DNA from: Micromonospora sp. NBC_01740
Lineage (GTDB): Bacteria > Actinomycetota > Actinomycetes > Mycobacteriales > Micromonosporaceae
Assembly (NCBI RefSeq): GCF_035920365.1
Contig: NZ_CP109150.1
Coordinates: 2,852,001-2,916,000, forward strand
DNA length: 64,000 bases
Reading direction: 5' to 3'
Under the pieces are notes generated by a model. That model had not been told where the DNA came from. It was given only the letters and a program-made list of their open reading frames with translations, and made no database searches. Position 1 is the first letter of the stretch. Every line of letters starts with the position of its first letter. This document shows positions 1-46,808 of this stretch, piece by piece. Made by a program: the position numbers and the translations under genes.

Positions 1-119
1 TCGCCGCCGCCGAGCCGGACGCCGCACCCAGCGGATCCATCGACGACATGGACGCCGACGCACTGATCAGCATGGCGCTCGCCGACCTCGGTGAAGCGAC
101 GACGGAAGCGGGGAGCTGA
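1..119 (+). CDS. C-terminal end of an upstream modular type I PKS (partial)
   Basis: Only the last 38 residues are in the window, read from base 3 to the TGA at 117-119. The tail contains [14 protein letters not shown], a typical acidic C-terminal docking helix of actinobacterial modular PKSs (family knowledge), followed by a short unstructured end. Its expected partner is the coiled-coil N terminus of the next protein, which starts 4 bases after this stop. The polyketide cluster therefore extends to the left of the window, and the loading module and early extension modules are not visible here. Confidence 0.85.
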
Positions 120-123
120 CCAC

Positions 124-10488
<10,365 letters not shown>

Positions 10489-10510
10489 CAGTGCGAGGAG
10501 GGCGACCGTA

Positions 10511-16500: not shown

Positions 16501-19500
16501 CGCCGGCCTCGCCGCGCTCGCCGCGGGGGAGCCCGCGCCGAACCTGGCCACCGGGGTCGCCGCCGGCACGCCGGGGAAGGTGGCGTTCTCCTTCCCCGGG
16601 CAGGGCTCGCAGTGGATCGGCATGGCCGTGGAGCTGCTCGACACCGCCCCGGTCTTCGCCGCCCGGATGGCCGAGTGCGAGGCCGCGCTGGCGCCGCACG
16701 TCGACTGGTCCCTGGAGGCCGTCCTGCGGCAGGGGGAGGAGTTGGACCGGGTGGACGTCGTCCAGCCCGTCCTGTTCGCCGTCATGGTGTCGCTGGCCGA
16801 GCTGTGGCGCTCCCACGGGGTCGAGCCCGCCGCCGTGGTGGGGCACTCCCAGGGCGAGATCGCCGCCGCCTGCGTGGCGGGCGCGCTCTCCGTGGCGGAC
16901 GCGGCCAGGGTCGTCGCCCTGCGCAGCCGGGCGCTGCTGCGCCTGTCCGGCAAGGGCGGCATGGTCTCCGTGCCGCTGCCGGTGGCCGAGGTGCGCGACC
17001 GGCTGGAGCGCTTCGACGGCCGGGTGACCGTGGCGACCGTCAACGGGCCGCGCTCGACGGTGGCGGCCGGCGAGCTGGACGCCCTCGACGAGCTGCTGGC
17101 CGAGTGCCAGCGCGACGGCGTGCGCGCCAAGCGCATCGACGTGGACTACGCGTCGCACTCGGCGTACGTGGAGGAGCTGCACGAGGAGCTGCGCGACGTC
17201 CTGGCCGGGCTGGAGCCCCGCCGGCCCGAGGTGCCGCTCTACTCGACAGTGGACGACCGGTGGCTGGACGACGTCGCGATGGACGCCGGGTACTGGTACC
17301 GCAACCTGCGCCAGACCGTCTGGTACGAGCCCGCCGTCCGGGCCCTGCTCGACGCGGGCGTCACCACGATCGTCGAGGTCAGCCCGCACCCCGTGCTCAC
17401 CATCGGCGTGCAGGACGTCATCGACGACGCGGGGGCCACCGCCACCGTGGTCGGCTCGCTGCGCCGGGACGAGGGGGGACTGGCGCGCTTCCTGCTCTCC
17501 CTCGGCGAGGCGCACGTGCACGGCGTGCACCCCACGTGGGGGGTCGACGGCGCGCGCCGGGTCCGGCTGCCCGGCTACCCGTTCGAGCACGAGCGGTACT
17601 GGCCGGCCGTCGGCACGGCCATCGCCGACGCGGCCGGGCTGGGGCTCGCCGCCACCGAGCACCCGCTGCTCGGCGCGGCGGTCGCGTTGGCCGACACCGA
17701 CGGCCTGCTCTTCACCGGCCGCATCTCGGTGGCCGCGCACCCGTGGCTGGCCGACCACCGGGTCGGCGGGCAGGTGTTCGTGCCCGGGACCGCGCTCGTG
17801 GATCTCGCGGTCCGCGCTGGCGACGAGGTCGACTGCGGCCGGGTCGAGGAGCTGACCCTGACCGCGCCCCTGGTGCTGCCCGAGAAGGGCGGGGTCCAGG
17901 TGCAGCTGCGCGTCGGCGCGCCCGACGAGAACGGGCAGCGGCAGCTGACCGTCCACTCCCGGCCGGACGGGGTCGCCACCGACGCGGCGCCGTGGGTGCG
18001 CAACGGCGTCGGCCTGCTCGCCCCCGGGGAGCCGGCGGGCGGCTTCGACACCGCGTGGCCGCCGGCGGCCGAGCCGGTCCCGTCCGACGAGCTGTACGAC
18101 ACCCTGGCCGCGGCCGGTCTCACGTACGGCCCGACGTTCCAGGGCGTACGCCGGGTGTGGCGGCAGGGCGAGGAGATCTTCGCCGAGGTGGCCCTGCCGG
18201 CGGAGGCCGCCCGGACGGCGGCCGGTTACGGCCTGCACCCGGCGCTGCTCGACGCCGCGCTGCACCCGCTCGCGCTCGTCACCAGCGGCACCGAGGCGCT
18301 GCTGCCGTTCGAGTGGACCGGCGTCTCCGTGCACGCCGTCGGCGCGACGGAGCTGCGCGTCCGGCTGCGTCCGCGCGGCCGGAACACGGTCGCGGTGACC
18401 GTCGCCGACCAGAGCAACACCGTGGTCGCCGAGGTCGAGTCGCTGGTGCTGCGGGAGGCCAGCGCCCCCGCGCAGCCGAGCACGCACCACGACGCCCTGT
18501 TCCGCCTGGAGTGGACCCCGGTCGCCGCGCCGGCGACCGCGCCGGACGCCCGCTGGGCGGCCCTCGGCGGGTGCACCCTGCCGCAGGACGCCGGCCTCGT
18601 CACCGACGCCTACCCGGACCTGGCGACCCTGCGGGCCCGGATGGCCGACGGCGCGCCGACGCCCGCCCTGGTCGTGCTGCCCTGCGCGGCCGGCGCGGCC
18701 GACGACCCCGCCGGGGCGGCCCACCGGGTCGTCCACGACACCCTCGCGGTGCTGCGCGAGTGGCTCGCGGACGAGCGGTTCGCCGACGCCCGGCTGGTCG
18801 TCGTCACCCGGGACGCGGTGAGCGTGCAGGAGGCGGCCCCCGACCTGCCCAGCTCGCCGGTGTGGGGCCTGCTCCGGTCGGCCCAGAGCGAGCACCCGGA
18901 CCGCTTCGTCCTGCTCGACGTCGACGACCGCGAGCCGCACCGGGCGCTCGCGGCGGCGGTCGCGGCCGACGAGCCGCAGCTCGCCCTCCGCGACGGCGTC
19001 CTGCTGGCCCCGCGGCTCGCCCGCGCGGCGAGCAGCCCCGCGCTGGCGGCGCCGCCGGTCGAGCGCTGGCGGCTGGACGTCACCGAACGCGGCACGCTGG
19101 ACAACCTGGCGCTGCTGCCCGAGGCGGAGGAACCGCGCCCGCTGGGGCCGGGTCAGGTGCGCATCGCGATGCGGGCCGCCGGCCTGAACTTCCGGGACGT
19201 GCTGATCGCCCTTGACATGTACCCCGGCGGCGGCGTGATGGGCGGCGAGGGTGCCGGCGTGGTCGTCGAGACCGCGCCGGACGTGACCGCCGTCGCGGTC
19301 GGCGACCGCGTCATGGGCCTGTTCTACGGCGCCTTCGGCACCGAGGTGGTCACCGACGCGCGGATGGTCGTGCCGGTGCCGTCGGGCTGGTCGTTCGCCA
19401 CGGCGGCGTCGACGCCGATCGCGTTCTGCACCGCCTACTACGCGCTTGTCGACCTCGCCCAGCTCAAGCCGGGGGAGCGGGTGCTGGTGCACGCCGCGGC

Positions 19501-21361
19501 AGGTGGCGTCGGCATGGCGGCGGTCCGCCTCGCCCGGCACCTCGGCGCGGAGGTGTACGGCACCGCCAGCACCGGCAAGTGGGACGCGCTGCGCGCGATG
19601 GGGCTGCCGGACACGCACATCGGCAACTCCCGCACCCTGGAGTTCGAGGAGCGCTTCGGCGCGGCCGGCATCGACGTGGTGATCGACTCGCTGGCGAAGG
19701 AGTTCGTCGACGCCTCGCTGCGCCTGCTCGGCGCGGGCGGCCGGTTCGTCGAGATGGGCAAGACCGACGTGCGGGACCCGGACCGGGTCGCCGCCGACCA
19801 CCCGGGCGTCGCCTACCAGGCGTTCGACCTGCTCGCCATCGACCCGGACCGGGTCGGCGCGATCCTGCGCGACGTGGTCGCCCTGTTCGGGACGGGCGAC
19901 CTCACGCCGCTGCCGGTGCGGCCGTACGACATCCGTCGCGCCCCGGAGGCGTTCCGGTTCATGTCCAAGGCCCGGCACGTCGGCAAGCTCGTGCTCACCG
20001 CGCCGCCCCGGCGGGACCCCGACGGCACGGTGCTCGTCACGGGCGGCACCGGCACCCTCGGCGGTCTGCTGGCACGGCACCTGGTGACCCGGCGCGGGGT
20101 GCGGCACCTCCTGCTGACCAGCCGTCGTGGCCCGGACGCCCCCGGGGCCGCCGAGCTGGTGGCCGAGCTGACCTCGTACGGCGCGGAGGTCACCGTCGCG
20201 GCGTGCGACGCGGCGGACCGCGCGGCGCTGGCCGAGACCCTGGCCCGGGTGCCCGCCGCGCACCCGCTGACCGCCGTGGTGCACACGGCGGGCGTCCTCG
20301 ACGACGGCCTGGTCGCCGCGCTGACCCCGGAGCAGGTCGACGCGGTGCTGCGGCCCAAGGTCGACGCGGCGGTCAACCTGCACGAGCTGACCCTGGACGC
20401 CGAGCTGGCCGAGTTCGTCGTGTTCTCCGCGGCGGCCGGCACGATGGGCGGCCCCGGGCAGGGCAACTACGCGGCGGCGAACACCTTCCTGGACGCGCTC
20501 GTGGCGGGGCGCCGGGCGGCCGGGCTGCCCGCCCGTTCGCTGGCCTGGGGCCTGTGGAGCGAGGCGAGCGGGATGACCGCGCACCTCGACGCCAACGACC
20601 GCGCCCGGATGGCCCGCGTCGGCCTGCTGGAGCTGTCGGTGGAGCAGGGCATGGCGCTGTACGACGCGGCGGAGCTGGTCGACGAGCCGCTGCTGGTGCC
20701 GATGCCGATGGATCCGGCGGCGCTGCGCGAGCTGGGCCGGGCGGGCCTGCTGCCCGCGCTGCTGCGTGGCCTGGTGCGGGGCCCGTCCCGACGGTCGGTG
20801 GAACAGGCGACGCAGTCGCCCGGCGCCCTGCGCGACCACCTGGCGAGCCAGAGCGGCCCGCAGCGACGGCACACCGCGCTGGAGTTCGTCAAGGCACAGG
20901 CCGCCGCCGTGCTCGGGCACGCCGGCGCGAGCGCGGTGGACCCCGACCGGCCGTTCACCGAGCTGGGCTTCGACTCGCTCACCGCGGTCGAGTTCCGCAA
21001 CCGGCTGAAGGCGGCCACCGGCCTGAAGCTCTCCGCCACCATGGTGTTCGACCACCCGACCGCCGCGGCGCTCACCGACCACCTGCTGGCCGGGCTGGCC
21101 CCGGCCGAGGTGGACCCGGCCGCGGGGCTGTTGGCCGAGCTGGACCGGCTGGAACGCTCGTTCGCCCAGGCCGGTGCGGCGGGTCTGGAGGACGCGGTCA
21201 AGGCACGGATTACCGATCGGTTGCACGCCGTGATGTCGAATTGGCGTGGCAGGTCCGACGTGGACGCCGAACCCGACGGACCGGACGTGGGCCTGGTGCT
21301 GAAGACCGCCTCCGCCGACGAGCTGTTGCGGTTCATCGACGACGAACTCGGCGCCGCCTGA
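10511..21361 (+). CDS. Type I modular polyketide synthase, two modules (KS-AT-KR-ACP and KS-AT-DH-ER-KR-ACP)
   Basis: A 3616-residue megasynthase starting at GTG 10511, after an AGGAGGG ribosome site. It opens with a docking coiled coil ([14 protein letters not shown]). Module 1: KS (Cys192); AT with GHSIG (Ser629) and HAFH (from 724), malonyl type; no DH; KR (near 1150) lacking LDD but with the VWGSGGQ tryptophan of A-type KRs and Gln at the A1/A2 position, which predicts an A1-type L-hydroxyl; ACP (Ser1449). Module 2: KS (Cys1674); AT with GHSQG (Ser2113) and YASH (2213), methylmalonyl type; intact DH motif (His2416, HRVGG); ER with Tyr2904 and the HAAAGGVG cofactor loop (2994); KR (near 3178) with LDD and Tyr3320 but Ala3307 where the catalytic Ser is expected; ACP (Ser3489). 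The C-terminal docking tail ends [12 protein letters not shown]. Predicted output is a hydroxyl, then a reduced alpha-methyl unit if the KR works. Confidence 0.96.
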
Positions 21362-21388: not shown

Positions 21389-30640
<9,252 letters not shown>

Positions 30641-30697: not shown

Positions 30698-31894
30698 ATG
30701 AGCAAGTCCGCTCGGATGAGCACGCTGATCAAGCCCCCCAAGGTGGCGTGGAACCCGACGGAACGCCGGCTGCTGCGCGCGGCGGGCATCGCCGACCTGC
30801 GCGACGTGGCCCGCCGGGCGGTGCCCCGCATGGTGTTCGACTACTGCGACGGGGCGGCGGACAGCGAGCGTAGCCTCAGCCGCGCCCGGGAAACGTTCGC
30901 CAACATCGAGTTCCAGCCGTCGGTGCTGCGCGACGTGTCCAACCTGGACACCAGCCGGACGGTGCTCGGCAAGCGGCAGAAGCTGCCGTTCGCCCTGGCG
31001 CCGGTCGGCTTCAACCGGGTGATGCACGCCGAGGGCGAGCCGGCGGTCGCGTCGGTGGCGCAGCAGTTCGGCATCCCGTACTCGGTCTCCACCCTCGCGA
31101 CCACGTCGCTGGCGGACGTCGCCGCCGCCGCGCCCGAGGGCCGGCACTGGTTCCAGCTGTACTTCGCCGAGGACCGGGCGATGGTCAAGGAACTGATCGC
31201 GCTCGCCGAGGAGGCGAAGTTCGACACCATCCTGCTGACGCTGGACACGCCGATCTCCGTGCCGCGCCGCCGCGACATCCGCAACGGCCTGACCATCCCG
31301 CCGTCGATGAGCGTCGGCACCATCGCCGAGGCGTTCCTGCACCCGGGCTGGTGGATGCGGCAGTGGCGGGCCGGCACCCCGTCCCCGCAGGTGCTCAAGG
31401 CCACCGGCGGCTCCGCGTCCGACATGATCAAGCGGGTGTTCAACCCGCGGCTGTCCATCGACGACGTCGAGTGGCTGCGCGGCGCCTGGTCGGGCAAGCT
31501 CGTCGCCAAGGGCGTGCAGAGCGTCGCCGACGCCAGGCGGGTCGCCGACGTCGGGGTCGACGGGGTGTGGCTGTCCACGCACGGCGGACGCAAGCTCGAC
31601 CGGGCCCCGGTGCCCGTCGAGCTGCTGCCCGACGTGGTGGACGAGGTGGGCGACCGGGTCGAGGTGCTCGTCGACACCGGCATCACCTCGGGCGCCGACA
31701 TCGTGGCGGCGATCGCCCTGGGCGCCACCGCCGCCGTGGTCGGCCGGGCCTACCAGTACGGCCTGATGGCCGGCGGCCGGCGCGGCGTCGTACGGGCCAT
31801 GGAGATCCTGAGCCGGGAGATCGAGGTCACCATGAAGCTGCTCGGGGTCTCCTCGGTGGGCGAGCTGAACCGTTCGCACGTCAGGTTCCGCTGA
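30698..31894 (+). CDS. FMN-dependent alpha-hydroxy-acid oxidase/dehydrogenase, LldD1/MftD-like
   Basis: 398 residues. ATG 30698 follows a GGAAGGA site. It belongs to the FMN alpha-hydroxy-acid dehydrogenase family (TIM barrel), which oxidises 2-hydroxy acids to 2-oxo acids. Visible family residues are Tyr49 (FDYCDG), Tyr155 (QLY), Lys271 (VAKG), His295 and Arg298 (THGGR). The 24-residue Lys-to-His spacing matches glycolate oxidase. The usual SNHGGRQ reads STHGGRK. The long N terminus and overall sequence resemble, from memory, mycobacterial LldD1, whose relatives include the mycofactocin enzyme MftD. It starts 57 bases after the last PKS gene on the same strand, so it is probably co-transcribed. 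The role is not shown by sequence: it could oxidise a hydroxy acid building block or tailor the product. No mycofactocin genes are present here. Confidence 0.88.
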   Translation: MSKSARMSTLIKPPKVAWNPTERRLLRAAGIADLRDVARRAVPRMVFDYCDGAADSERSLSRARETFANIEFQPSVLRDVSNLDTSRTVLGKRQKLPFALAPVGFNRVMHAEGEPAVASVAQQFGIPYSVSTLATTSLADVAAAAPEGRHWFQLYFAEDRAMVKELIALAEEAKFDTILLTLDTPISVPRRRDIRNGLTIPPSMSVGTIAEAFLHPGWWMRQWRAGTPSPQVLKATGGSASDMIKRVFNPRLSIDDVEWLRGAWSGKLVAKGVQSVADARRVADVGVDGVWLSTHGGRKLDRAPVPVELLPDVVDEVGDRVEVLVDTGITSGADIVAAIALGATAAVVGRAYQYGLMAGGRRGVVRAMEILSREIEVTMKLLGVSSVGELNRSHVRFR

Positions 31895-31965
31895 TTCCCG
31901 CCGTTTCTCGATTCCCGTCGGAACGGTCGGACTGTCGTATTTCGGGGCGTACGTGGAGGTTATTT

Positions 31966-32850
31966 GTGGCACGCATGAGCGGGAACGGTCACTGCCGTTC
32001 GTTCAACGGGGACGGGAGGATGGACATCATGGTCCGTGACGACGTCACGGGCGAACTGCTGGTCTTCCCGCACAGCGGCAGCTTCCGGGGTGCCGAGACC
32101 TTCGGCGAGCCGGAGCTGATCAGCACCGGCTTCCACCCGAACCGGAACCACGGGCTGGTCCGCCCCATCGACGTCAACGGCAACGGCCGCGCCGACGTCA
32201 TCGGCATCAGCATGACGCACATGAACGAGACCCACGGGATCTTCCTCTATCCCAACAGGGGCGGGCTGAACGGTCTCGACACCCTCGGCGATCCGATCCG
32301 CATCTCCGGCGCCCGGGACGACAAGAAGTGGGAGACCCTCGGCATCGCGGACCTGGACCTGGACGGCTGTGACGACATGTTCGGCCGCGAGCAGAACGCG
32401 GGCCACGTCGACGCGTTCTTCAACAAGCGCCAGGTCACGCAGAACGAGACGTACGACCGCACCGCGCACCGCCTGGTGACCGTCGACGTCGAGGACTTTC
32501 CGCTCGCGATGGCCGACTTCACCGGCACCGGCCGGGCCGACCTGCTGGTCCGGCGGGCGAACGGCGACCTCGACCTGTACGAGTTCGCGCACGACACCTC
32601 CGGGGAGGGCCCGTGGTGGCGGGGCGAGGGCCGGTGGTTCACGCTCGCCCACGGCTGGCAGGAGTACGAGATCATCACCGTGACCGACATCGACCTCGAC
32701 GGCCGCCCGGACGTGCTGGGTCTGCGCCCCGACGGCACCCTCGTCGTCCACCTGCACAACGGCACGTTCGACCCGGACCGGCCGTTCGCGACGCTGTCCG
32801 CACCGGAGGTCGTCGCGACCGGCTGGCAGAAGTACTCGGTGGTGAGCTGA
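31966..32850 (+). CDS. FG-GAP/VCBS repeat protein, probable five-bladed beta-propeller
   Basis: 294 residues. GTG 31966 is chosen because GGAGG ends 6 bases upstream; the next in-frame ATG (31975) lies too far from it. Five Ca-binding-like FG-GAP motifs recur about every 57 residues: NGDGRMD near 14, NGNGRAD near 71, DLDGCDD near 131, TGTGRAD near 187 and DLDGRPD near 243. Such repeats form beta-propeller blades (family knowledge). There is no signal peptide and no membrane segment, so the protein looks cytoplasmic, which is unusual for FG-GAP proteins. It lies 71 bases after the hydroxy-acid oxidase gene and 87 bases before the ferredoxin gene. No catalytic residues are recognised. It could be a binding or scaffold protein, or a lyase-like propeller enzyme. 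A shortened copy occurs at 45104-45334. Confidence 0.85.
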   Translation: MARMSGNGHCRSFNGDGRMDIMVRDDVTGELLVFPHSGSFRGAETFGEPELISTGFHPNRNHGLVRPIDVNGNGRADVIGISMTHMNETHGIFLYPNRGGLNGLDTLGDPIRISGARDDKKWETLGIADLDLDGCDDMFGREQNAGHVDAFFNKRQVTQNETYDRTAHRLVTVDVEDFPLAMADFTGTGRADLLVRRANGDLDLYEFAHDTSGEGPWWRGEGRWFTLAHGWQEYEIITVTDIDLDGRPDVLGLRPDGTLVVHLHNGTFDPDRPFATLSAPEVVATGWQKYSVVS

Positions 32851-33365: not shown

Positions 33366-34577
33366 TCAGACCGTGACCGGGAGGGAGATCAGTGCCGGCA
33401 CCAGCGGCGTACGCCGGACCTTCAGCGACTCCCGGGGCGCGGCGAGCTTGATGTTCGGGAAACGGGTGAACAGCTCCCGGAGGGCGATGGTCGTCTCCAT
33501 CCGGGCCAGCTCCGAACCCGAGCAGAAGTGCGGGCCGCCGCCGAACGCCACGTGCCCCTTGTCCTCGCGGTCGATGTCGAGCACCTGCGGATCGGGGAAC
33601 CGCTTCGGGTCGTTGCCCGCCGCGGTCAGGTGCAGCAGCACCGTCTCGCCCTTGGCGATCTTCGTGCCGTCGATCTCCAGGTCCTCCGTGGCGAAGCGGC
33701 GGAAGCCGTGGTGCACGGAGCCGTTGCGGCGCAGCAGCTCCTCGACGGCCACGTCGAACAGGTCCGGGTCCTTGCGGAGCCGCTCCAGCGTCTCCGGGCT
33801 GTCGAGCAGCGCCAGCGCGCCCCGGCCGATCATGCCCGCGGTGGTGTCGTACCCGCCCAGCATCGTCAGCAGGGCCAGGGCCATCACCTGGTAGACGTTG
33901 AGTTCGGGCTCGCCGTCGGCGTTCTTGGCGTGGATCCAGTACGAGAAGAGGTCCTCGCCGGGCTCCTTCGTCTTCTCCTCGCGGACCATGTTCATGAAGT
34001 GCGACATCTTCGTGCGGACCATCGCGTTGGTCTCGTTGTCGCCGCTGAACACCAGGTCCGCCCAGTGCTTCAGGTCCTTGCGGTACTCCTCGCGGATGCC
34101 GAGCACGTCGCAGACGATCGTGATCGGCAGGATGGCCGCGTAGTCCTCGACCAGGTCGCCGCCGCCGGCCGCCTCGATCGCGTCCAGCCGGGCCTTGACC
34201 AGCTGGTGCACCCGGGGGCGGAAGGTCTCCAGGTTGCGGGGTAGGAAGGTGAAGTTGATCATCTTCTTGAGCCGGGTGTGCTCCGGCGGGTCGAGGGTGA
34301 CGATCGTCCCGGTCGCCTCGCCCTCCGGGAAGCGCTTGCTGGTGAAGTCCCCGTTGCTGTACTCGCGGGGCCGCGCGAGGCGCCGGTCGCGGAGCGCGGA
34401 GTAGACCTCGGCGTGGCCGGTCACCAGCCACACGGGGCCGTGGTCGGGCAGGCAGGTGCGGTGCACGGCACCCTTTTCGTGCAGTGACGCGTAGACCTCG
34501 TACGCCGCGTACGGGCTAGCGAAGTAGTCGTCGTCCATCACCATCTGATGCCCGTGCGCCGGGCACTTGTTCGCCAT
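33366..34577 (-). CDS. Cytochrome P450 monooxygenase
   Basis: 403 residues, normal bacterial class I length. ATG 34577 (MANKCPAHGH) follows GAGGAC; the longer open frame to its right lies in another frame of the SARP gene and has no coding character. Motifs in order: I-helix GGYDTT (oxygen activation, acid-alcohol pair); ExxR as ELLR; heme loop FGGGPHFCSG with the cysteine ligand. There is no membrane anchor. The converging [3Fe-4S] ferredoxin gene is the natural redox partner. It lies 149 bases downstream of the SARP gene on the same strand. A hydroxylation or epoxidation of the polyketide is likely (inference); the site cannot be told from sequence. Confidence 0.95.
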   Translation of the reverse strand: MANKCPAHGHQMVMDDDYFASPYAAYEVYASLHEKGAVHRTCLPDHGPVWLVTGHAEVYSALRDRRLARPREYSNGDFTSKRFPEGEATGTIVTLDPPEHTRLKKMINFTFLPRNLETFRPRVHQLVKARLDAIEAAGGGDLVEDYAAILPITIVCDVLGIREEYRKDLKHWADLVFSGDNETNAMVRTKMSHFMNMVREEKTKEPGEDLFSYWIHAKNADGEPELNVYQVMALALLTMLGGYDTTAGMIGRGALALLDSPETLERLRKDPDLFDVAVEELLRRNGSVHHGFRRFATEDLEIDGTKIAKGETVLLHLTAAGNDPKRFPDPQVLDIDREDKGHVAFGGGPHFCSGSELARMETTIALRELFTRFPNIKLAAPRESLKVRRTPLVPALISLPVTV

Positions 34578-34726: not shown

Positions 34727-35506
34727 TTAGTGGGTGAGTGCGGGGATTTGGATTTTGGCGTCGTGTTCGAGGATGCGTTGTTGGAGTTCTTGGAGGCTGC
34801 GGCCGGGTTCGAGGCCGAGGCCGTCGACGAGGGCTTCGCGGGTGCGTCGGTAGACGCGGAGGGCGTCGACTTGGCGGCCGCTGCGGTAGAGGGCGAGCAT
34901 GAATTGGTGGCAGAGGCGTTCGCGCATGGGTTCGGTGGCGGTGAGGATTTCGAGTTCGGGGGTGATTTCGCGGTGTCGGCCGCAGGCGAGTTCGGCGTCG
35001 AGGCGGTCTTCGAGTGCGGAGAGTCGTTCGTCTTCGATGGCGGCGAGTTCTGACCAGCAGGTGCCGGTTTCGACGAGGTCGGCGAGGGCGCGTCCGCGCC
35101 AGAGGGTGAGTGCTTCGGTGAGGAGTTGGGCGGCGCGGGTGGGGTTGTTGGTGGTGGTGGCGTGGCGGCCTTCGCGGACGAGTCTGCGGAAGCGGTAGAG
35201 GTCGATGGTTTCGGTGTCGATGCGGAGTTGGTAGCCGGGTGGGTGGGTGCGGAGGGTGGGGTTGGTGGTGGGGTCGGTGTTGTGGGTGAGCATGCGGCGG
35301 ATGCCGGAGACGGCGTTCTGGACCATTTTGCGGGCGGTGGGGGGTGGGTTGCCGTCCCACATGGCGTGGAGGATTTGGCTGGTGGCGACGACTTTGTTGG
35401 CGTTGAGGAGGAGGTAGCCGAGGATTGCGCGTTGGCGGATTCCGCCGAGTTCGAGGTGGTGGCCGTTGTTGGTGACTTCGGTGCTGCCGAGTACGGAGAA
35501 GCGCAT
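34727..35506 (-). CDS. SARP-family pathway-specific transcriptional activator
   Basis: 259 residues: N-terminal winged-helix DNA-binding domain (MRFSVLGSTEV to about residue 95) followed by a bacterial transcriptional activation (BTAD) domain. This is the short two-domain SARP form that switches on antibiotic clusters. ATG 35506 is chosen because CGGAG lies 6 bases upstream and the SARP fold starts here; an in-frame ATG at 35560 adds only a Pro/Thr-rich stretch. Codon use is odd: codons end mostly in C, with many CAA, AAA and GAA, so the plus strand reads as T/G-rich, unlike neighbouring genes. Direct repeats GGGGTGCC spaced 11 bases lie upstream (35577-35595). It is the only cluster-type activator in the window. 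Confidence 0.93.
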   Translation of the reverse strand: MRFSVLGSTEVTNNGHHLELGGIRQRAILGYLLLNANKVVATSQILHAMWDGNPPPTARKMVQNAVSGIRRMLTHNTDPTTNPTLRTHPPGYQLRIDTETIDLYRFRRLVREGRHATTTNNPTRAAQLLTEALTLWRGRALADLVETGTCWSELAAIEDERLSALEDRLDAELACGRHREITPELEILTATEPMRERLCHQFMLALYRSGRQVDALRVYRRTREALVDGLGLEPGRSLQELQQRILEHDAKIQIPALTH

Positions 35507-35576
35507 GGTGTGCTCCGGTGGTCTGGTGGGGGTGGTGGGGGTGGGTTTTGAGTTTCCCATCGGTGGTCATTGGGGA

Positions 35577-36421: not shown

Positions 36422-37417
36422 TCAGTTGCCGCTGTCGAGCACGTTCCCGTCGTGCGGGCGCAGGGCCCGGGAACGCCGGAAGTCGCGGTGCACGAAGATC
36501 CGCTGGAGCCACCGGTCGTAGCCGTCGTAGCGGGGCGTGAACTCGGTCCGCCCGTGCAGGGCCAGCCGGTTGTCGACGAACGCGAGGTCGCCGGGCTCCA
36601 GGATGAACGTCCGGCGGACGGTGCGCAGCGCGTCGCCGAGTACCGACAGCGCCTGCGTGGCCTCCGGGTCGAGGGGGAACGAACTCTGGAAGTCGACCTG
36701 GACGTCCGGGTCCTCGGGGCTGCCGCTGAGGATGCCGTGCGGTTCCGGCGCGCTGCGCAGGTCGCCGAACGACGCCGGCGGTTCGGTGACGAACCGTGGC
36801 TCGTGCAGCACCTTGCGGACCTGCTCGGACAGCAGGGGCAGCGCGTTGCGGATCGACGTCACCTGCAACCCGGCCACGTTGTCGTGGTCGTTGCGCAGGC
36901 AGTGCAGCCCGACGTAGTCCGGACGGTAGACGTGGAAGGCGTTCTCCACGTGCATGGACAGCGTCACCGAGCCCGCGTTGCCCTGGAACTTCTCCATGCC
37001 CGGCACCGGCACGACGTCCTGCACCAGCGCGCCGCTCTTCTCCTCCTTGAAGGCGATGAGCTCCCCGAGTTGCAGCCCGAGCAGCACCTGCGCGGCGGCG
37101 GGCACGGTGGACTCGCGCTGCGCCGAGCCGGCCACCGTGGGCGTGCACGGCAGCTCGTCGGCGTCCACGGGCAGGTTCCGCACCAGCAGCACGGCGTCGG
37201 GCCCGGGATCCCAGGCGAAGCGCCGCACCATCTGGCGCAGGCGTACGGGCAGGTTGCTGGAGAGTTCGCGGGCCGTTTCGAGCCAGGCGGCCGAGTCCAC
37301 CAGGCGCGGCGGTCGGCCCGCCAGGTAGCGGGCGATCGTGTCGACCTCGATGTTCTCCTCGCGGGTCAGGACGATCGATCGGTCTGTACTGCGTGTGGGC
37401 TGGACGTCGACGGTCAC
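36422..37417 (-). CDS. AsnO-like Fe(II)/2-oxoglutarate oxygenase, predicted asparagine beta-hydroxylase
   Basis: 331 residues. GTG 37417 is supported by GAGGAGG 5 bases upstream. It is a clavaminate synthase-like non-heme oxygenase. The iron ligands appear as His156 and Glu158 in HVENAFH and His288 in LALHGRTEF, with an Arg-containing 2-oxoglutarate segment (DRWLQR, 301-306). These positions agree within one or two residues with AsnO of the CDA pathway as I recall it (His155, Glu157, His287, Arg305; 333 residues). AsnO hydroxylates free L-Asn at C3. Last gene of the minus-strand operon, 51 bases after the C-A-PCP gene. The upstream A domain has an Asn-like code, so a 3-hydroxyasparagine supply is predicted. 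Arg or Asp hydroxylases of the same family are the main alternative. Confidence 0.9.
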   Translation of the reverse strand: MTVDVQPTRSTDRSIVLTREENIEVDTIARYLAGRPPRLVDSAAWLETARELSSNLPVRLRQMVRRFAWDPGPDAVLLVRNLPVDADELPCTPTVAGSAQRESTVPAAAQVLLGLQLGELIAFKEEKSGALVQDVVPVPGMEKFQGNAGSVTLSMHVENAFHVYRPDYVGLHCLRNDHDNVAGLQVTSIRNALPLLSEQVRKVLHEPRFVTEPPASFGDLRSAPEPHGILSGSPEDPDVQVDFQSSFPLDPEATQALSVLGDALRTVRRTFILEPGDLAFVDNRLALHGRTEFTPRYDGYDRWLQRIFVHRDFRRSRALRPHDGNVLDSGN

Positions 37418-37468
37418 GCCGAGCCTCCTCTGCTGAGGTCCGAGACGGTGTGGGGGTTGAGCGATCGG

Positions 37469-40400
37469 TCAGTCGTCGTCCTCGTCGTCGTCCCAGAACG
37501 CGTCCTGCAGGTGCTCCGCGAGCTGCCGTGGCGTCGGGTTGGCGAACAGGTCGGCGAGCTGTACCGGCATCGACAGTTCGGTCCGCACCCGCTGCACGAG
37601 CTGGGCGCCCAGCAGCGAGTGGCCACCGCTGGCGAAGAAGTTCGAGTCCGCGTGCAGGCCCGGCCGGTCGAGCATCTCGGTCCAGATCCCGACCAGGGCG
37701 GCGGTCGTCTCGTCCGGCGGGTCGACCTCGGCCGCCGCCCGCGCCGCCGCGAGCGCGACGAGGGCCGCGCGGTCCACGGTGCCCGCCACGGTGACCGGCA
37801 ACTGGCTCAGCACGACCAGGTCGGGCGTGAGCGGCAGGGCGGCACGGGCGTGCTCGCGCAGCCGCTCCGCCACGTCGGGCTTGCGGGACTCGACGAACGC
37901 GACGACCGTGCCGTCCTGCGCGTCGCCGGTGGACCCGACGGCGGCGACCGCCTCCACGTCCGGGTGGGCGGCGAGGACGGACTCGATGTCGCGGAGGTGG
38001 ATCCGCTGGCCGGCGACGCGTACGTGGGCCGACAGGGGGCCGACGACGTCGATCCGGCCGTCCGGCAGCAGTCGCGCGAGATCCCCGGTGCGGTGGAACC
38101 GCCCGTGCGTGGGGTGCTCGCCGAACCGGGCGGCGGTCAGCTCCGGCCGGCCGTGGTAGCCGGCGGCCAGCGTGTCGCCCGCGACGCACAGCTCCCCGCG
38201 TACGCCGATGCCCAGCTCGTGATCGGTGCCGGGCTCGGTGACGAACACGCGGGTCGCCGGGAGGACACCGGTGCCGTCCCGTCCGCCGTCGAGCGCGGCG
38301 TACCCGGCGACGCCGGGCGTGGTGTAGCCGTGGTGCGGCGTGCAGCCGGTGGCGCGCAGCTGCGCGGCGAGCGGGCGGGGGAGCGGTTCGTGGGCCACCA
38401 GGACGGCCCGGCCCGCGAGCCGGGCGCCCGCGTGCTCGACCACCTGGCGCCACACCGCCGGCGACGCCTGCACCACGGTCACGTCGTGCCGCTGGACCAG
38501 CTCGCCGAGCGCGTGGCCGTCGGCGCGGGCCTGGTCGGGGGCGACGACGACCCGGCCGCCGGTGGTCAGCGCGACCAGCAGCTCCGTCAGCGCCGCGTCG
38601 GTGGCGGCGCTGCCCAGCCAGGCGGTGACGGCCGGCCCATTGGCGGCGACCCGCTCGGCGAGCCGCGCGACGGCGCAGGCCAGCGCCCGGTGGGTGACGG
38701 TCACCGCGAGCGGGGCGGGCGCGTCGAGGTCGTACTCCAGGTAGGCCACCGCGTCGAGGTCGACAGCGGACGGCGCGTCGGTGCGGACCGCGTCGGTGGC
38801 GGCGGGGATGGCGGGGATGGCGGGGATGCGTACCGCGCCGGGCACGGGGAGGCCCTCGGCCGCCAGCACCGGGGCGGCACCCGAGTCGGCCAGCCGCGCG
38901 GCGAGGTCGGGGATCGGCTGGGTCGGATCGAGCAGGACGCAGCGCCTGCCCGCCAGCCACACGCCGAGCCACGCGGCGGCCAGCTCCGCGCCGCGCGGCG
39001 CCAGCACCGCGACCGTGCTCCCGTCCGAGGCGGCGACCAGGTCCCGGGTGGCGAGCGCCGCCGACCACAGCCGGCCGTACGACACGTCGTCCGCCCCGTC
39101 CCGCACCGCGACGAGGTCCGGGCTCGCGGCGGCCGTCGCGTGCACGGCGTCCAGCACGGACGCCGTGGTGGCCGTCTCCGGCGCCGACGCCGGCAGGGCG
39201 AGGTCGTCCGCGCCCCGGCGGGACAGCTGCGCCACCGGCCGCTCCAGGTCGTCGCCCAGCCGCACGAGCAGCGCGTCGTACCGTTGCAGCAGCAGCCCGA
39301 CGTCGGCGGCGTCGAAGGCGTCGACGCAGAACGCCGCGCGGACGGTGGTCGCGTCCTCGCCCGGCATGATGAAGAACTCCAGGTCGAAGCGGCTGTAGCC
39401 GTTCTCCACCATGACGTGGCGCAAGGGCATCCCGGTCAGGGTGGCGGAGGCGTCGACGGTGCCGGGCACGTAGTTGAACAGGTGCCGGAAGAACGAGCTG
39501 CGCCACGACGACGGCGCGTCGCCGAGCACGGCGGGGGAGACGTGCTCCAGCGGCACGTCGGCGTGGCTGATCGCCTCCAGGAAGGTGCTGCGCGTCTGCT
39601 TGACGACGGCGCGGAAGTCGGCGTCCGGGTCGACCCGCACCCGCAGCGGCACCAGGTTCGCGTGATAGCCGATGGCGTTCATGCTGCGCTGGTCGCGCAC
39701 GTTCACCGGGGTGCCGATGACCACGTCGGAGCCCGCGCCGTGCTGGGCGAGCAGCACCGAGTACGCCGCGAGCAGCACGACAGCCTCGGAGGCGCGCAGT
39801 TCGCGCTGGAAGCGGCGCACCACGGCGCGGGCCGGCGCGGAGAGCTCGTGGTGGACGGTGCGGGCGCGCAGGGACGGCGCCCCGACGGGCGGCAGGGCGC
39901 ACCACAGGCCCGCCTCGGCGGCCCGCAGCCCGTCGAGGTTCTTGCGCCAGTACGCGACGCTGCGCTCGTTCGGCGTGCGCTCCGCTAGCGCGGCCATCGG
40001 GGCGTCGTCGGGCCGGCCGCCCGCCGCGAGCGCCTCGTAGCCGGCGAGCAGTTCGCGGAGCAGGATCGTGGTCGACATGGCGTCGAAGTTCAGGTGGTGC
40101 ACGACGACGCAGCACACGTCGGCGTCCGCTCCCGCGCGGATCCCCGCCCGCAGCAGGGGGCGGCCGTCGATCTCGAAGGGCTCGGCGGCGAACGCGGTCA
40201 GGTCGGCGTCCATCCCGTCGTCACCGGCCGGGATGTCCACCACGGGCACGTCGAGCTGGTCGGCGGCGAGCACCTCCCGGGTCAGCGTCGCGTCGTCGGA
40301 GCGGAACACGGTGCGCAGCACCTCGTGCCGGGCCAGCACCGCCCGCAGCGCCGCCGTGAACAGCCCGCGGTCGATCCGGCCGGCCACCTCGAAGGCGACC

Positions 40401-40485
40401 GCCACGTTGTTGACCCCGGTGTCCGGCACCAGCCGCTCGAGCAGCCACATGGCTGCTTCCTTCCTGCTGGCCGCGATGCTCATGC

Positions 40486-40489
<4 letters not shown>
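37469..40489 (-). CDS. NRPS C-A-PCP protein with an inactive A domain
   Basis: 1006 residues from GTG 40489, whose GTGA overlaps the stop of the upstream gene; ATG 40483 is possible. Domain order: condensation domain (about 10-430) with HHLNFDA, which keeps the catalytic second His and the Asp but has Ala for the usual Gly; adenylation-like domain (about 450-910); PCP (about 920-1000) with FFASGGHSL and its phosphopantetheine Ser. The A domain has lost its core motifs: the SGSTGxPKG loop is replaced by YLEYDLDAPAPLA, the YGPTE motif by HGYTTPG, and the A10 Lys (NGKxDR) by Thr (AGTVDR). It keeps RTGD. It should not adenylate, so the C domain or PCP must use the aminoacyl group loaded by the neighbouring A-PCP protein (inference). 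Likely role: amide bond between the beta-ketoacyl chain and (hydroxy)asparagine. Confidence 0.92.
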
Positions 40490-42276
<1,787 letters not shown>

Positions 42277-42280
42277 CGCG

Positions 42281-43102
42281 CTACCCCGCGATCCGCTGAC
42301 CGGCGTCCGCACCGGTCATCAGGCCGGAGACCGTCGCGGCGACGTCGGGGTGACGCAGCATCTGGTCGTGGTCGACGGCGAGCGGGATGGTGCGCCCGAA
42401 GCCCTGCCCGCGCTGGGTCGAGTGCGCGGAGGTGATCGCCGTCGCCGTCGCCCACTGCGGGGCGGGGTCGATCTCCGTCGCCGCCCGCAGGTAGCCGACG
42501 AACGAGGCGAAGCTGCCGCCCAGTTCGGCCCGAACGTCGTCGTCCAGGCCGAGCCGGCGGCCCGCCACGTCGATCGCGTCGGAGAAGATCCCGGCGAGCG
42601 CGGGACCGATGAGGGTGAGGTCCTCGAGCCCGTGCTTCTCCTGCACCGCCTGGCCGTCGGCGTGGAACGCCGCGATCTCCTCGGGGGTGAGGATGGTCCG
42701 CAGCGCGTCCGCGGCGGCGTGGAAGTCCCGGTACAGCCCGACGATGTTCGGCAGCTCCGGGTCCAGCAGGACCAGCCTCGGCGCCTCGTCCTGCGACTCG
42801 GCCAGCCGGGACGCGAGGGGGGCGGCGAACACCGCGCCCACGCAGTAGCCGATCACGGTGTCGACGGTGCGTTCCCGCCGGCGTACGCCCTTCGCCCACC
42901 GCTCGACGTAGTCGGCGCCGGACATGGTGTCCTCGGCGCCGGAGGCGGGTGCCACGGTCTCCCAGATCTCGCCGGGCGCGCTCAACAGGGGCACCAGGTC
43001 GCGGAAGCACGCCTGGGTGCGGCCGGTGCTGGTGAAGTCGACGGTGAGCGTGAGGCCGCCCGGCCCGCCCTTGCGCAGTATCTGCCAGGAGTTCTTCTTC
43101 AC
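42281..43102 (-). CDS. Standalone alpha/beta hydrolase with Cys nucleophile, candidate Dieckmann cyclase (NcmC/TrdC/SlgL type)
   Basis: 273 residues. GTG 43102 has GAGGGA 7 bases upstream. It has a thioesterase-like fold, but the nucleophile elbow is GYCVG with Cys87 instead of Ser. Asp114 (LLDPE) and a His in VDHDQMLRHP (His245, or His251) complete a Cys-Asp-His triad. The 27-residue Cys-to-Asp spacing equals that of NcmC (Cys89, Asp116), the Dieckmann cyclase of nocamycin, as I recall it. This family releases beta-keto amides from the NRPS carrier as tetramic acids. It sits directly before the A-PCP and C-A-PCP genes, and the last PKS module keeps its beta-keto group, which is exactly the required substrate. 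Alternatives are an editing type II thioesterase or a beta-lactone-forming Cys thioesterase. Confidence 0.8.
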   Translation of the reverse strand: MKKNSWQILRKGGPGGLTLTVDFTSTGRTQACFRDLVPLLSAPGEIWETVAPASGAEDTMSGADYVERWAKGVRRRERTVDTVIGYCVGAVFAAPLASRLAESQDEAPRLVLLDPELPNIVGLYRDFHAAADALRTILTPEEIAAFHADGQAVQEKHGLEDLTLIGPALAGIFSDAIDVAGRRLGLDDDVRAELGGSFASFVGYLRAATEIDPAPQWATATAITSAHSTQRGQGFGRTIPLAVDHDQMLRHPDVAATVSGLMTGADAGQRIAG

Positions 43103-43179: not shown

Positions 43180-43929
43180 TCAGACGCGGGCGCTGTCCTT
43201 CAGGTACCGCAGGATCACGGCGCCGCCGAGCACGACGGTCCAGCCCGCGAGCACCACGGCGGCGAGCCCGAGCCGGGCGGTGTCCTCGAACGGGCTGTGT
43301 CCGATTTCGGCCAGCCAGTGGCTCGGCATGATCGCGGACGCCGTCTGCATCCAGTCGGGGAACGCGACCGACGGGACCAGCGCGCCGCCGAGCACGCCGA
43401 GCAGCATGTGCGAGACGGAGGTGAGCACCTGCACGCTCTCGGCCGTGGCGACCTGGCCGATGAAGACGCCCAGCAGCGCGAACGGCAGCGTGCCGACCCA
43501 CACCCCGAGCACCAGTTGGAGCCAGCCGCCCACCGGCAGCCGGACGCCCTCCAGCAGCGCGCCGGTGAGCGCCACCGCCGTGATCGCCGGTAGCGCCACC
43601 ACCATCGCCGCGGTCAGCTTCGCCGCCAGGTAGGAGGTCGGGGACAGGGGGGTGATGCGCAGTTGGCGCTGCCATCCGGTGGACCGCTCGATCGCCACCC
43701 TGGTGCCGACGTTCAGCGCGACGAAGAGCGCCCCGAAGGCGGCGAGACTGCCGAGCAGGTGCTCACTGAAGTTGATGCCGGCGCCTCCGCCGGCCAGGTT
43801 GGCCTGCATCATGTCGAACAGGTTGGCCTGCATCAGGTAGAGCAGCGTCGGGAACAGGAACGCGACGATCCAGAACTTGCGGGCCCGGAGCACCCGCTTC
43901 ACTTCGAGCTTGAGGAAGCCGGCGCTCAT
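43180..43929 (-). CDS. ABC-2 type transporter permease
   Basis: 249 residues. ATG 43929 overlaps the ATPase stop (TGATG). It has about six hydrophobic segments (near 18-35, 60-75, 105-125, 140-155, 170-185 and 220-240), typical of DrrB-like ABC-2 permeases that export hydrophobic drugs or lipids. It should pair with the ATPase encoded just upstream and act in the cell membrane. It lies 77 bases before the cyclase gene in the same operon, which suggests export of, or self-resistance to, the cluster product. Confidence 0.92.
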   Translation of the reverse strand: MSAGFLKLEVKRVLRARKFWIVAFLFPTLLYLMQANLFDMMQANLAGGGAGINFSEHLLGSLAAFGALFVALNVGTRVAIERSTGWQRQLRITPLSPTSYLAAKLTAAMVVALPAITAVALTGALLEGVRLPVGGWLQLVLGVWVGTLPFALLGVFIGQVATAESVQVLTSVSHMLLGVLGGALVPSVAFPDWMQTASAIMPSHWLAEIGHSPFEDTARLGLAAVVLAGWTVVLGGAVILRYLKDSARV

Positions 43930-44873
43930 CAGGCGGCCCCGCCCTTCGTCGCGGTGAGGGCCAGGAACGCCTGTTCCAGGCCGAGGGCGCCGATCTCGAC
44001 GTCGTACGCCTGGGGGAAGCGCGCGAACAACTCGCGGGCGGTGGCGTCGGAGTCGGAACTGACGATCTCGACGCGCTGGCCACGGGCCTCGGCGGTCATC
44101 ACGCCGGGCAGCAGGCGCAGCTGCTCGACCGTCGCGTCCGGGACGGTGGCCGACAGCGAGCGGCCCGCCACCACGGAGCGGATCTCCGTGACCGTGCCGT
44201 CGGCGATGATCTTCCCGGCCTGTACGAGCACCACCCGGTCGGCGAACTCCTCGGCCTCCTCCATGTAGTGGGAGGCGAACACCACGGTGCGTCCGGAGTC
44301 GGTGAACTCCCGCATGGCGGCCCAGAACACGTGGCGGGACTCGACGTCCATCGCCACCGTCGGCTCGTCCAGCACCAGCAGCTTCGGGTCGGACACGAGG
44401 GTCATGGCCAGCCGCAGCCGCTGGCGCTGACCGCCGGAGAGCCGGCTGCGGCGGTCGGCGACGTCGGTGAGGTCGGTGCGGCGCAGCACCTCGGCGATCG
44501 GCAGCGGGGCGGTGTGCAGCGACGCCACCATCGTGAGCAGCTCGCGGATCGACACGTCGTCGAGCAGGGCGCCGTCCTGGAGCGTCGCCCCGATGACGCC
44601 CCGGGTGATGGCCTCCCGGGGGGTGTGCCCGAAGACGCGGATCTCGCCACGGTCGGGGCGGGTGAGCCCCAGGATCATGTCGACGAGCGTGGACTTCCCC
44701 GCACCGTTGGGCCCGAGCAACGCGACCACCTCGCCGGGAGCGATCCGCAGGTCGATGCCGTTGACGGCGCGCACGTCGCCGTAGCTCTTGTGCACGTCCG
44801 CCACGTCGATCGCCTGTGGGTCCACCGCACCGGGCGTGGGTGTGGCCACGAGGTTCGCGATTGCGTTGCTCAT
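43929..44873 (-). CDS. ABC transporter ATP-binding protein, DrrA-like
   Basis: 314 residues. ATG 44873 (MSNAIANL) is chosen because GGGGA lies 6 bases upstream; an in-frame ATG at 44885 has no ribosome site. Walker A GPNGAGKST, signature LSGGQ, Walker B LLVLDEP, and the H-loop His in ASHYMEE are all present. The C-terminal 90 residues are of the DrrA type. It powers the adjacent permease. It is the first gene of the minus-strand operon that also holds the cyclase, NRPS and AsnO-like genes. The upstream region carries candidate SARP repeats. Confidence 0.94.
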   Translation of the reverse strand: MSNAIANLVATPTPGAVDPQAIDVADVHKSYGDVRAVNGIDLRIAPGEVVALLGPNGAGKSTLVDMILGLTRPDRGEIRVFGHTPREAITRGVIGATLQDGALLDDVSIRELLTMVASLHTAPLPIAEVLRRTDLTDVADRRSRLSGGQRQRLRLAMTLVSDPKLLVLDEPTVAMDVESRHVFWAAMREFTDSGRTVVFASHYMEEAEEFADRVVLVQAGKIIADGTVTEIRSVVAGRSLSATVPDATVEQLRLLPGVMTAEARGQRVEIVSSDSDATARELFARFPQAYDVEIGALGLEQAFLALTATKGGAA

Positions 44874-44992
44874 TGATTTCCCCATTTAGATCGGTGCGGG
44901 TATGCGAATAGTATTTAGCAGCGCTAGGGAGCGGGGAGCCAGGAATTCCGGGGCCGCCGCCGCGAGAATTGGCGTCCGAGGCGCCTTATTCC

Positions 44993-45335: not shown

Positions 45336-46808
45336 ATGGACCGCCTCGCCGCCGCAGCCGAGCGGGCCGACCGGCTCGGGCCGATGCTCGGCACCTTCCT
45401 GCACCGCTTCCCTGTCGACGACCCCGGCACGGACGGGCCGCTGCGCGGCACGCTGATCGGCGTCAAGGACGTCGTCGCCGTCGCCGGCGCGCCGAGCACC
45501 TGCCAGAGCGTCGTGCACGACGCGGGCTGGTGGGCCGACCGCGACGCGACCGTGGTGGCACGGCTGCGCGCGGCGGGCGCGGTGATCGTGGGCAAGACCA
45601 CGATGGCGGAGCACGCGCTGTCCCGGCCGGACCCGGACGCGTCCTTCCCGGTGCCGCGCAACCCGTGGGACCCCCACCGGTGGACCGGCGGGTCGAGCTG
45701 CGGCAGCGCCAACGGCATCCCCGCCGGGTTCTTCGACGCGGGTGTCGGCACCGACAGCAACGGCAGCATCCGGATCCCGGCCGCGCTGTGCGGCGTGACC
45801 GGGCTGAAGCCGACGCAGGGCCTCCTGCCGGCGGCGGGTGTCCGCCCGCTGGCGCGGTCGGTCGAGACGGCGGGTCCGCTGGCCCGTACGGCCCGGGAGT
45901 GCGCGCGGCTGCTCGCCGTGATGGCGGACCGGCCCGCGGAGCTGTCCCGGCCGGCGCTCGCCGACCTCGCGGGCGTCCGTGTCGGCGTCCCGGGGGACCT
46001 CGTGCGGTACGCCGCCGCGCTGACCGACGACACCGCCGCCGCCTTCGACGCCGCGCTCGACGAGCTGCGGGCCGCCGGGGCGGAGGTCGTCGACGTGCCC
46101 CTCGACGAGGCGTTCCCGCTCTTCGCCGCGCAGCTCGTGACGATGCTGGTGGAGGCGTTCGAGGTGCACGGGGCGCAGTTCCGGGCGCGCTGGAACGACT
46201 ACGGCCGGCCGTTCCGGTGGAACGTCGCGCTCGGCGGCGTGCTCCCGGCGGAGACGTACCTGCGGGCCCAGCGGGTGCGTGGGTGGGGCGCCGAGGCCCT
46301 GCGGGCGCGGTTGCGGGACGTCGACGTCATCGCCACGCCCGCCTGGCCGTCCGCCGCCCCCCGCTACGACGACCAGGCCAGCCTCCAGACGATCTCCTTC
46401 CTGCCCAGCATCTGGAGCGCGGTCGGCTTCCCCGCGCTGGCGCTGCCGATGGGGGCCGACGGCGACGGGTTGCCGCTGTCGCTGCAACTGGCCGCCGCCC
46501 CCGGCCGCGACTTCGAGCTGGCCGCCGTCGCCGACGTCTACCAGCGGCGTACGGGCTGGCACGAGCGCGAGCCGAAGCTGGAGGTCGTGACGGACCTCGC
46601 GGCGGTCTGCGCCCCGGAGGCGCCCGCCGACGGGGTCGACCCCGTCCGGCGGGAGCGGCTGGCCCAGGCGTTCGGCGAGCTGGGCGTCCCGCTGGGGGAG
46701 GGGGACCTCGACCAGGTGACCATGACGTGGTCGAAGGTCCAGGCTCTCGCGGGGGTACTGCCGGAACTCCCGGTGGACGTGCCGCCGTTCGTCGCCACCA
46801 CCGGGTGA
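45336..46808 (+). CDS. Amidase signature family hydrolase
   Basis: 490 residues from ATG 45336. Amidase-signature enzymes hydrolyse amides with a Ser-cisSer-Lys triad. Here the Lys is in GVKDVV, the cis-Ser in TGGSSCGSA, and the nucleophile in GTDSNGSIRIPA (canonical form GSDTGGSIRIPA). The body has normal length, plus a C-terminal 60-residue segment that I do not recognise. It lies directly behind the FG-GAP remnant and its GTG/stop region, with no independent ribosome site, so it probably depends on translation of that short frame. It could act on the carboxamide of the asparagine-derived unit or on a protecting acyl group (inference). It could also be a general amidase at the cluster edge. 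Confidence 0.9.
   Translation: MDRLAAAAERADRLGPMLGTFLHRFPVDDPGTDGPLRGTLIGVKDVVAVAGAPSTCQSVVHDAGWWADRDATVVARLRAAGAVIVGKTTMAEHALSRPDPDASFPVPRNPWDPHRWTGGSSCGSANGIPAGFFDAGVGTDSNGSIRIPAALCGVTGLKPTQGLLPAAGVRPLARSVETAGPLARTARECARLLAVMADRPAELSRPALADLAGVRVGVPGDLVRYAAALTDDTAAAFDAALDELRAAGAEVVDVPLDEAFPLFAAQLVTMLVEAFEVHGAQFRARWNDYGRPFRWNVALGGVLPAETYLRAQRVRGWGAEALRARLRDVDVIATPAWPSAAPRYDDQASLQTISFLPSIWSAVGFPALALPMGADGDGLPLSLQLAAAPGRDFELAAVADVYQRRTGWHEREPKLEVVTDLAAVCAPEAPADGVDPVRRERLAQAFGELGVPLGEGDLDQVTMTWSKVQALAGVLPELPVDVPPFVATTG

Follow-up and report, generated by a model that had tools for sequence, protein, structure and literature searches.

A split asparagine module and a Dieckmann cyclase candidate in a conserved Micromonospora assembly line predicted to release a 3-acyl tetramate

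The DNA considered here is a window of 64,000 nucleotides from Micromonospora sp. NBC_01740 (contig NZ_CP109150.1, positions 2,852,001 to 2,916,000; coordinates below are those of the window), in which four genes at 36422-43102 lie near a type I polyketide synthase (PKS). All four are on the reverse strand, in the order Dieckmann cyclase (DC) of the NcmC/TrdC/BpdE type (42281..43102), adenylation-thiolation (A-T) didomain protein (40486..42276), condensation-adenylation-thiolation (C-A-T) protein (37469..40450) and AsnO-like Fe(II)/2-oxoglutarate oxygenase (36422..37417), separated by about 4, 35 and 51 bases. The start of the C-A-T gene at 40450 has the better ribosome site, and 40483 is a possible alternative. 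An earlier sequence-only reading had placed these genes in one operon, as their strand and spacing bear out, and had proposed that a beta-keto amide is released by Dieckmann ring closure. This is still the best reading, and we consider it highly probable, as judged from sequence, that this line and its seven-module PKS would yield an asparagine-derived 3-acyl tetramate. The present analysis adds a dead adenylation domain, the bripiodionen precedent and two extra side-chain genes.

The adenylation domain of the A-T protein has intact core motifs and, by Pfam and motifs, an Asn-type code (DLTKMGEVGK), and the serine of its T domain lies in GGTSL. The C-A-T protein likewise keeps its T-domain serine (GGHSL), but in its A domain A3 has changed from YTSGSTGSPKG to YDLDAPA-PLA, A5 from NEYGPTE to HGYTTPG, and the A10 lysine to Thr, by which motifs the domain is catalytically dead. 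Both the Asn-type code and the dead A domain are found in all seven clusters of this kind (of the latter, only A7 to A10 were covered in genome G354). Intact C-A-T proteins with the code DILQLGVIWK at the DC loci L043, L054, L069, L073, L142 and L144 serve as an internal control; they agree with DILQLGVI, although other codes also occur there, printed as the Gly code of the nocamycin nonribosomal peptide synthetase (NRPS) (PMC5466765). In the four closest pairs (G246, G220, G174 and G263, with dS only 0.06-0.18), the ratio of nonsynonymous to synonymous substitution rates (dN/dS) was 0.41-0.51 for the dead A domain, 0.22-0.32 for the active A domain and 0.24-0.39 for the C domain; dead and active A domains gave 0.39 vs 0.26 in G354 and 0.73 vs 0.55 in G277. 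Constraint on the dead domain thus appears somewhat relaxed, not gone, and the domain is probably retained as a scaffold.

Because the A domain of the C-A-T protein is dead, a single Asn would be added by the two proteins acting as a split module. The arrangement is that of bripiodionen (bpd) in Streptomyces reniochalinae LHW50302, where BpdC, BpdD and BpdE provide a C-A-T protein with a silent A domain, a separate Asn A-T didomain and a stand-alone Cys-Asp-His/Tyr Dieckmann cyclase (PMC10956176). Zang et al. showed by mutation that the A domain of BpdC is silent, while its T domain and that of BpdD are essential (PMC10956176). As in that system, we find a C-A-T protein whose A domain is inactive by motif, a separate Asn-type A-T protein and both T serines. 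The sequence-only reading had seen an A-PCP (peptidyl carrier protein) and a C-A-PCP; both are present, but the latter is not a second amino-acid module. If two amino acids were added, the A-PCP loading one and the C-A-PCP activating the second, the retention of an A region and a T serine in both proteins would be accounted for. However, A3, A5 and the A10 lysine are missing from the C-A-PCP A domain in all stretches covered, its dN/dS exceeds the value for the active A domain in the four closest pairs, the release line has a single C domain, and the BpdC counterpart is silent by mutation (PMC10956176). We regard this alternative as very improbable, and a two-residue NRPS was rejected on the dead A domain.

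The cyclase candidate is a protein of 273 residues with GYCVG at residues 85-89 and VDHDQML at residues 243-249. Neither Pfam nor NCBIfam has a family for it at E 0.001. The top PDB match by phmmer is the nocamycin cyclase NcmC (E 4.1e-41 over 257 residues), followed by its C89S variant (E 1.3e-39), with the next PDB sequence at E 0.056; NcmC (6e6t, 6e6u, 6e6y) is a homologous cyclase whose fold and catalytic residues are as here, including an alpha/beta-hydrolase core with a four-helix subdomain. Eighteen proteins of a large protein set are matched by the cyclase, the window protein included, with identities from 86% down to 29% (window protein and frame-broken P0016 excepted). Fifteen of these, the window protein among them, were aligned with NcmC (P0004, P0012 and P0016 were left out, the last two being read as frame-broken): Cys87 and Asp114 are invariant and His245 is nearly so, the exception being an Arg in P0017. 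By alignment, Cys87, Asp114, Tyr204 and His245 stand at the positions that correspond to C89, D116, Y204 and H245 of BpdE, each of which is essential in that enzyme, where C89S also fails (PMC10956176). The spacing of 27 between Cys87 and Asp114 equals that of Cys89-Asp116 of BpdE, and the Cys87, Asp114 and VDHDQML features noted earlier were confirmed.

The alpha/beta-hydrolase fold is common to the cyclase and many thioesterases (TEs), and one cyclase relative, P0013, is annotated with PF00975 and named a thioesterase domain-containing protein. The stand-alone hydrolase might accordingly be an editing type II thioesterase, the chain leaving otherwise as an acid or lactone. Against this, PF00975 has 27 matches in the genome and none at the cyclase open reading frame (ORF), and a fold comparison ranks NcmC well above all TEs. 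In a tree, a branch with 100/100 support parts 35 DC-family rows from eight stand-alone PF00975 proteins of the same genome, the only source of thioesterases used (rows L024 and L009, a copy of the query, were left out, and L005 and L040, which are the same contig, were counted once). The nucleophile motif of these eight is GHSxG in seven cases and GDCLG in one, and none has Asp at column 114. We consider an editing role extremely unlikely; the type II thioesterase identity was rejected because the cyclase has GYCVG, not GHSxG, and lies on the far side of that branch, the grouping that would have spoken against the sequence-only reading. A terminal TE was also rejected, since there is no PF00975 match inside the cluster and no TE in the last PKS module.

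Seven extension modules are carried on four forward-strand PKS proteins, upstream of and within the window, with ketosynthase (KS), acyltransferase (AT), dehydratase (DH), enoylreductase (ER), ketoreductase (KR) and acyl carrier protein (ACP) domains. The first subunit starts about 5.1 kb upstream, and the window holds its 3' end (1..119); its module 1 is KS-AT(malonyl)-DH-KR-ACP. The second subunit (91..10488) has modules 2 and 3, KS-AT(methylmalonyl)-DH-KR-ACP and KS-AT(malonyl)-DH-KR-ACP, and the third (10511..21361) has modules 4 and 5, KS-AT(malonyl)-KR-ACP and KS-AT(methylmalonyl)-DH-ER-KR-ACP. The fourth (21389..30640) has module 6, KS-AT(methylmalonyl)-DH-KR-ACP, and module 7, KS-AT(malonyl)-(KR remnant)-ACP. 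In this last module (26486-30640) Pfam finds a KS, an AT, a dimerisation element and an ACP, and none of KR, DH and TE. The stretch of about 375 residues that precedes the last ACP aligns as what is left of a KR, with both the NADPH loop and the Ser/Tyr/Asn residues missing; a KR query had no match to this remnant at E 1e-3, and longer stretches of the six Micromonospora clusters gave no KR match in the last module. A last module that keeps its beta-keto group and has no thioesterase, as claimed earlier, fits these data. The malonyl and methylmalonyl calls rest on the YASH/HAFH motif rule, and DH activity in modules 2 and 3 is less sure because the motif there is H-x3-D. Read formally, the modules would give R-CH=CH-CH=C(Me)-CH=CH-CH(OH)-CH2-CH2-CH(Me)-CH=C(Me)-C(=O)-tetramate.

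From the domains, their active and dead sites, the gene order and its conservation, we infer substrates, an order of steps and a product. The A-T protein would activate one L-Asn or 3-hydroxy-Asn, and the aminoacyl group would move from it onto the T domain in the C-A-T protein. There the C domain would couple it to the beta-keto chain delivered by PKS module 7, and the cyclase would take the chain on Cys87 and close the 3-acyl tetramate by Dieckmann condensation. The AsnO-like enzyme may hydroxylate the beta-carbon (C3) of Asn, as the free acid or on the carrier, and a 3-hydroxy-Asn residue would place CH(OH)-CONH2, an alpha-hydroxy amide, on ring carbon 5. The same set of genes could also give another ring, either a pyridone made by the same kind of enzyme or a lactone-type ring closed through the oxygen of 3-hydroxy-Asn. 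KirHI, of the same family as the cyclase, is named with pyridone formation, and the beta-hydroxyl would be an extra nucleophile. Kirromycin pyridone formation uses beta-alanine, however, and the A-T code here is that of an alpha-amino acid of the Asn type. With Asn, the BpdE route described by Zang et al. yields a tetramate (PMC10956176), and we think a different ring unlikely.

Several observations weigh against tetramate release as proposed. The identity between the cyclase and NcmC is only 36-39%. The Asn code, which we take to be DLTKLGEVGK, differs from that of the A-T protein at one position (Met for Leu). There is no MbtH gene in the cluster (four were found elsewhere in the genome, with 150 of 206 candidates scored), and no enzyme for transfer between the T domains is visible in it. 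AsnO-type enzymes are known to act on free amino acids, which makes hydroxylation on the carrier less sure. An Arg stands at the triad-His column in P0017, which is near the cyclase clade and 41% identical, and at ten other family loci, so that membership of the DC family alone does not guarantee the reaction and Dieckmann cyclisation by the proteins of the ten loci cannot be assumed.

These ten loci (L025-L030, L032-L034 and L036, with contexts L055-L060, L062-L064 and L071) have PVSRAALLAD and similar sequences. Several adjoin NRPS C-A ORFs with a DILQLGMVW-type code, with no KS match within the 20 kb read. At L055 (G349, about 9409-11885) a DC homologue outside the main clade has Asn and Arg at the Asp and His columns, and is directly followed by an A-T didomain with the code DMTKVGEVGK.

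The oxygenase (331 residues) is closest among PDB proteins to AsnO (2og5, 283 bits), ahead of clavaminate synthase 3 (166) and VioC (137), and falls below the cut-off of the NCBIfam equivalogs for related hydroxylases. Its iron ligands and pocket positions (HVE, LHGR, EEK, GNAG and the Asp of VDF/IDF) are kept in the seven clusters, the counterpart of Asn146 of AsnO among them, the pocket Glu and Asp corresponding presumably to E125 and D241 of AsnO. In AsnO (2og5-2og7) the pocket residues are described as Asn146, a Glu and an Asp (PMC6224419). With these residues in place, the enzyme is a probable asparagine 3-hydroxylase.

Two further genes are conserved with the release line. An FMN-dependent 2-hydroxyacid oxidase/dehydrogenase homologue (30698..31894, forward strand, PF01070) has lactate oxidase, mandelate dehydrogenase and hydroxyacid oxidase 1 as PDB matches and occurs in all seven clusters, at 84-97% identity (59% in G277). 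All seven homologues retain the catalytic His-Gly-Gly-Arg stretch without change, and dN/dS for the gene is low, at 0.06-0.13 in the four closest pairs. In G277 the gene lies inside the operon, flanked by the ABC genes and the cyclase gene, a relocation that ties it to the release line. An amidase-signature family hydrolase (45336..46808, forward strand, PF01425) is likewise present in 7/7 clusters, and the window protein shows the Lys, cis-Ser and Ser motifs. Its PDB and NCBIfam matches (GatA, amidase, malonamidase, indoleacetamide hydrolase; all listed NCBIfam scores below cut-off) point to no hydroxy-amide substrate in particular. Mandelamide hydrolase and mandelate dehydrogenase offer a logic for such a pair. 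By analogy, the hydroxylase, amidase and FMN oxidase might form one pathway from alpha-hydroxy amide through hydroxy acid to keto acid, which we put forward tentatively as a possibility; its basis is the joint conservation of the genes together with the chemistry of their families, and it could be mistaken. Alternatively, the amidase may serve in self-protection or act on the starter, and the FMN enzyme may use another alcohol. Of the (hydroxy)carboxamide side chain from asparagine that had been predicted, the Asn origin and the AsnO-like oxygenase stand, but the carboxamide may not remain, because the amidase and FMN oxidase homologue are conserved with the line. If the pathway is true, one would expect a 3-polyenoyl tetramate whose glycolic or oxalyl side chain forms a metal-binding head group; we know of no tetramate with such a group.

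The predicted compound had been related to, and set apart from, streptolydigin, a tetramate that shares an aspartate-derived amide side chain and differs in its 3-methylaspartate chemistry. The difference holds, but the closest precedent is bripiodionen, which has the split module and silent A domain. SlgL of streptolydigin is named as a cyclase in the same family. AsnO itself serves the NRPS of the lipopeptide CDA, not a tetramate line. The bripiodionen comparison was made on domains and text, not on the bpd sequences themselves. In that cluster, too, the last PKS module is listed without KR or TE and no transfer enzyme was found (PMC10956176). It differs in that the PKS is short and an MbtH protein is listed, against seven modules, other starter genes and no clustered MbtH here, and Table 1 for bpd (PMC10956176) is without AsnO-like hydroxylase, FMN oxidase and amidase, all three of which are in the seven clusters. 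The nocamycin NRPS is one C-A-PCP with predicted Gly specificity, and the portion of that article available mentions neither a split module nor an Asn hydroxylase (PMC5466765). Epifadin reaches an Asp tetramate by another mechanism, through a terminal condensation-like domain (PMC11310079). Among the titles listed from the open-licence literature, none was recognisable as describing this cluster or a tetramate from hydroxyasparagine, which is weak evidence of absence.

The release line was found in seven clusters, six in Micromonospora (the relatives' genus is one we infer) and one in a Saccharothrix metagenome-assembled genome (MAG). The same gene order recurs in the six other genomes, with DC identities of 59-99%, and the arrangement is therefore not due to chance. 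A DC-family match at E 0.001, in some cases weak, was found in 47/354 family genomes; many of the weakest fall in ORFs that are thousands of residues long, probably as PKS or NRPS domains. Around the 39 best of 61 matches outside the genome itself, up to 20 kb of context was read. The complete block of amidase, two ABC genes, DC, A-T, C-A-T with dead A domain, and oxygenase is present at five of these; at E 1e-6 the other 34 had no oxygenase match and one weak amidase match (30%). A contig scan with one sequence gave only two loci, among them that of the Saccharothrix MAG, the sixth relative. Module order is alike in the six Micromonospora clusters as far as fetched: G174 and G263 were covered for modules 3-7, and the window, G220, G277 and G246 (cut in module 1) for modules 1-7. 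The MAG, covered from module 5 on, agrees. In a class-wide sample, 13/394 genomes had a DC match, the genome studied here included, and the split Asn module was in none of five loci read from the others.

Two genes that lie upstream of module 1, for an FcoT-like thioesterase and an AMP-dependent ligase, are perhaps starter genes. The three forward frames of the interval from the ligase to the first PKS gene show no carrier-protein ORF, and the oxygenase is nearest to AsnO; an isonitrile-type starter is for these reasons not favoured. G174, G246 and G263 (L038/L078, L039/L080, L040/L082) have an AMP-ligase homologue, 25-27% identical to the window ligase, and two extra KS-AT(malonyl)-DH-KR modules between the P450 and FMN oxidase genes. 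The window and G220 have neither the homologue nor the extra modules there, and have the FcoT and ligase genes upstream of module 1. A YcaO protein of 768 residues (L004:8690-10996, reverse strand, about 9-11 kb upstream of the window) lies beside a BTAD regulator and adjoins the supposed starter genes.

Other reverse-strand genes near the cluster are a cytochrome P450 of possible tailoring function (33366..34577; P450 models, below equivalog cut-offs), with a homologue on the same side in 6/7 clusters (42% in G354), and a SARP-type regulator (34727..35560). On the strand of the release genes also lie an ABC permease-like protein, named by eye from its translation (43180..43929), and a DrrA-like ABC transporter ATPase (43929..44885; NCBIfam drrA 196 bits, cut-off 312), both conserved in 7/7 clusters. 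By eye, a VCBS/FG-GAP-like repeat stretch was seen at 31950-32850 (forward strand, after the FMN oxidase gene, in another frame), and, at 50493-51461 (reverse strand), a protein that looks secreted and combines an M23-like peptidase part with peptidoglycan-binding-like repeats.

Taken as proposed, the cluster is a larger, well-conserved relative of the split A-T/C-A-T tetramate module of bripiodionen, which is, on the published text, its nearest precedent rather than streptolydigin. Its seven genomes offer natural variants for asking how an aminoacyl group passes from one carrier protein to another and why a dead A domain is retained. If the hydroxylase acts on carrier-bound Asn, the purpose of the split module would be to hold the residue for tailoring ahead of its use.
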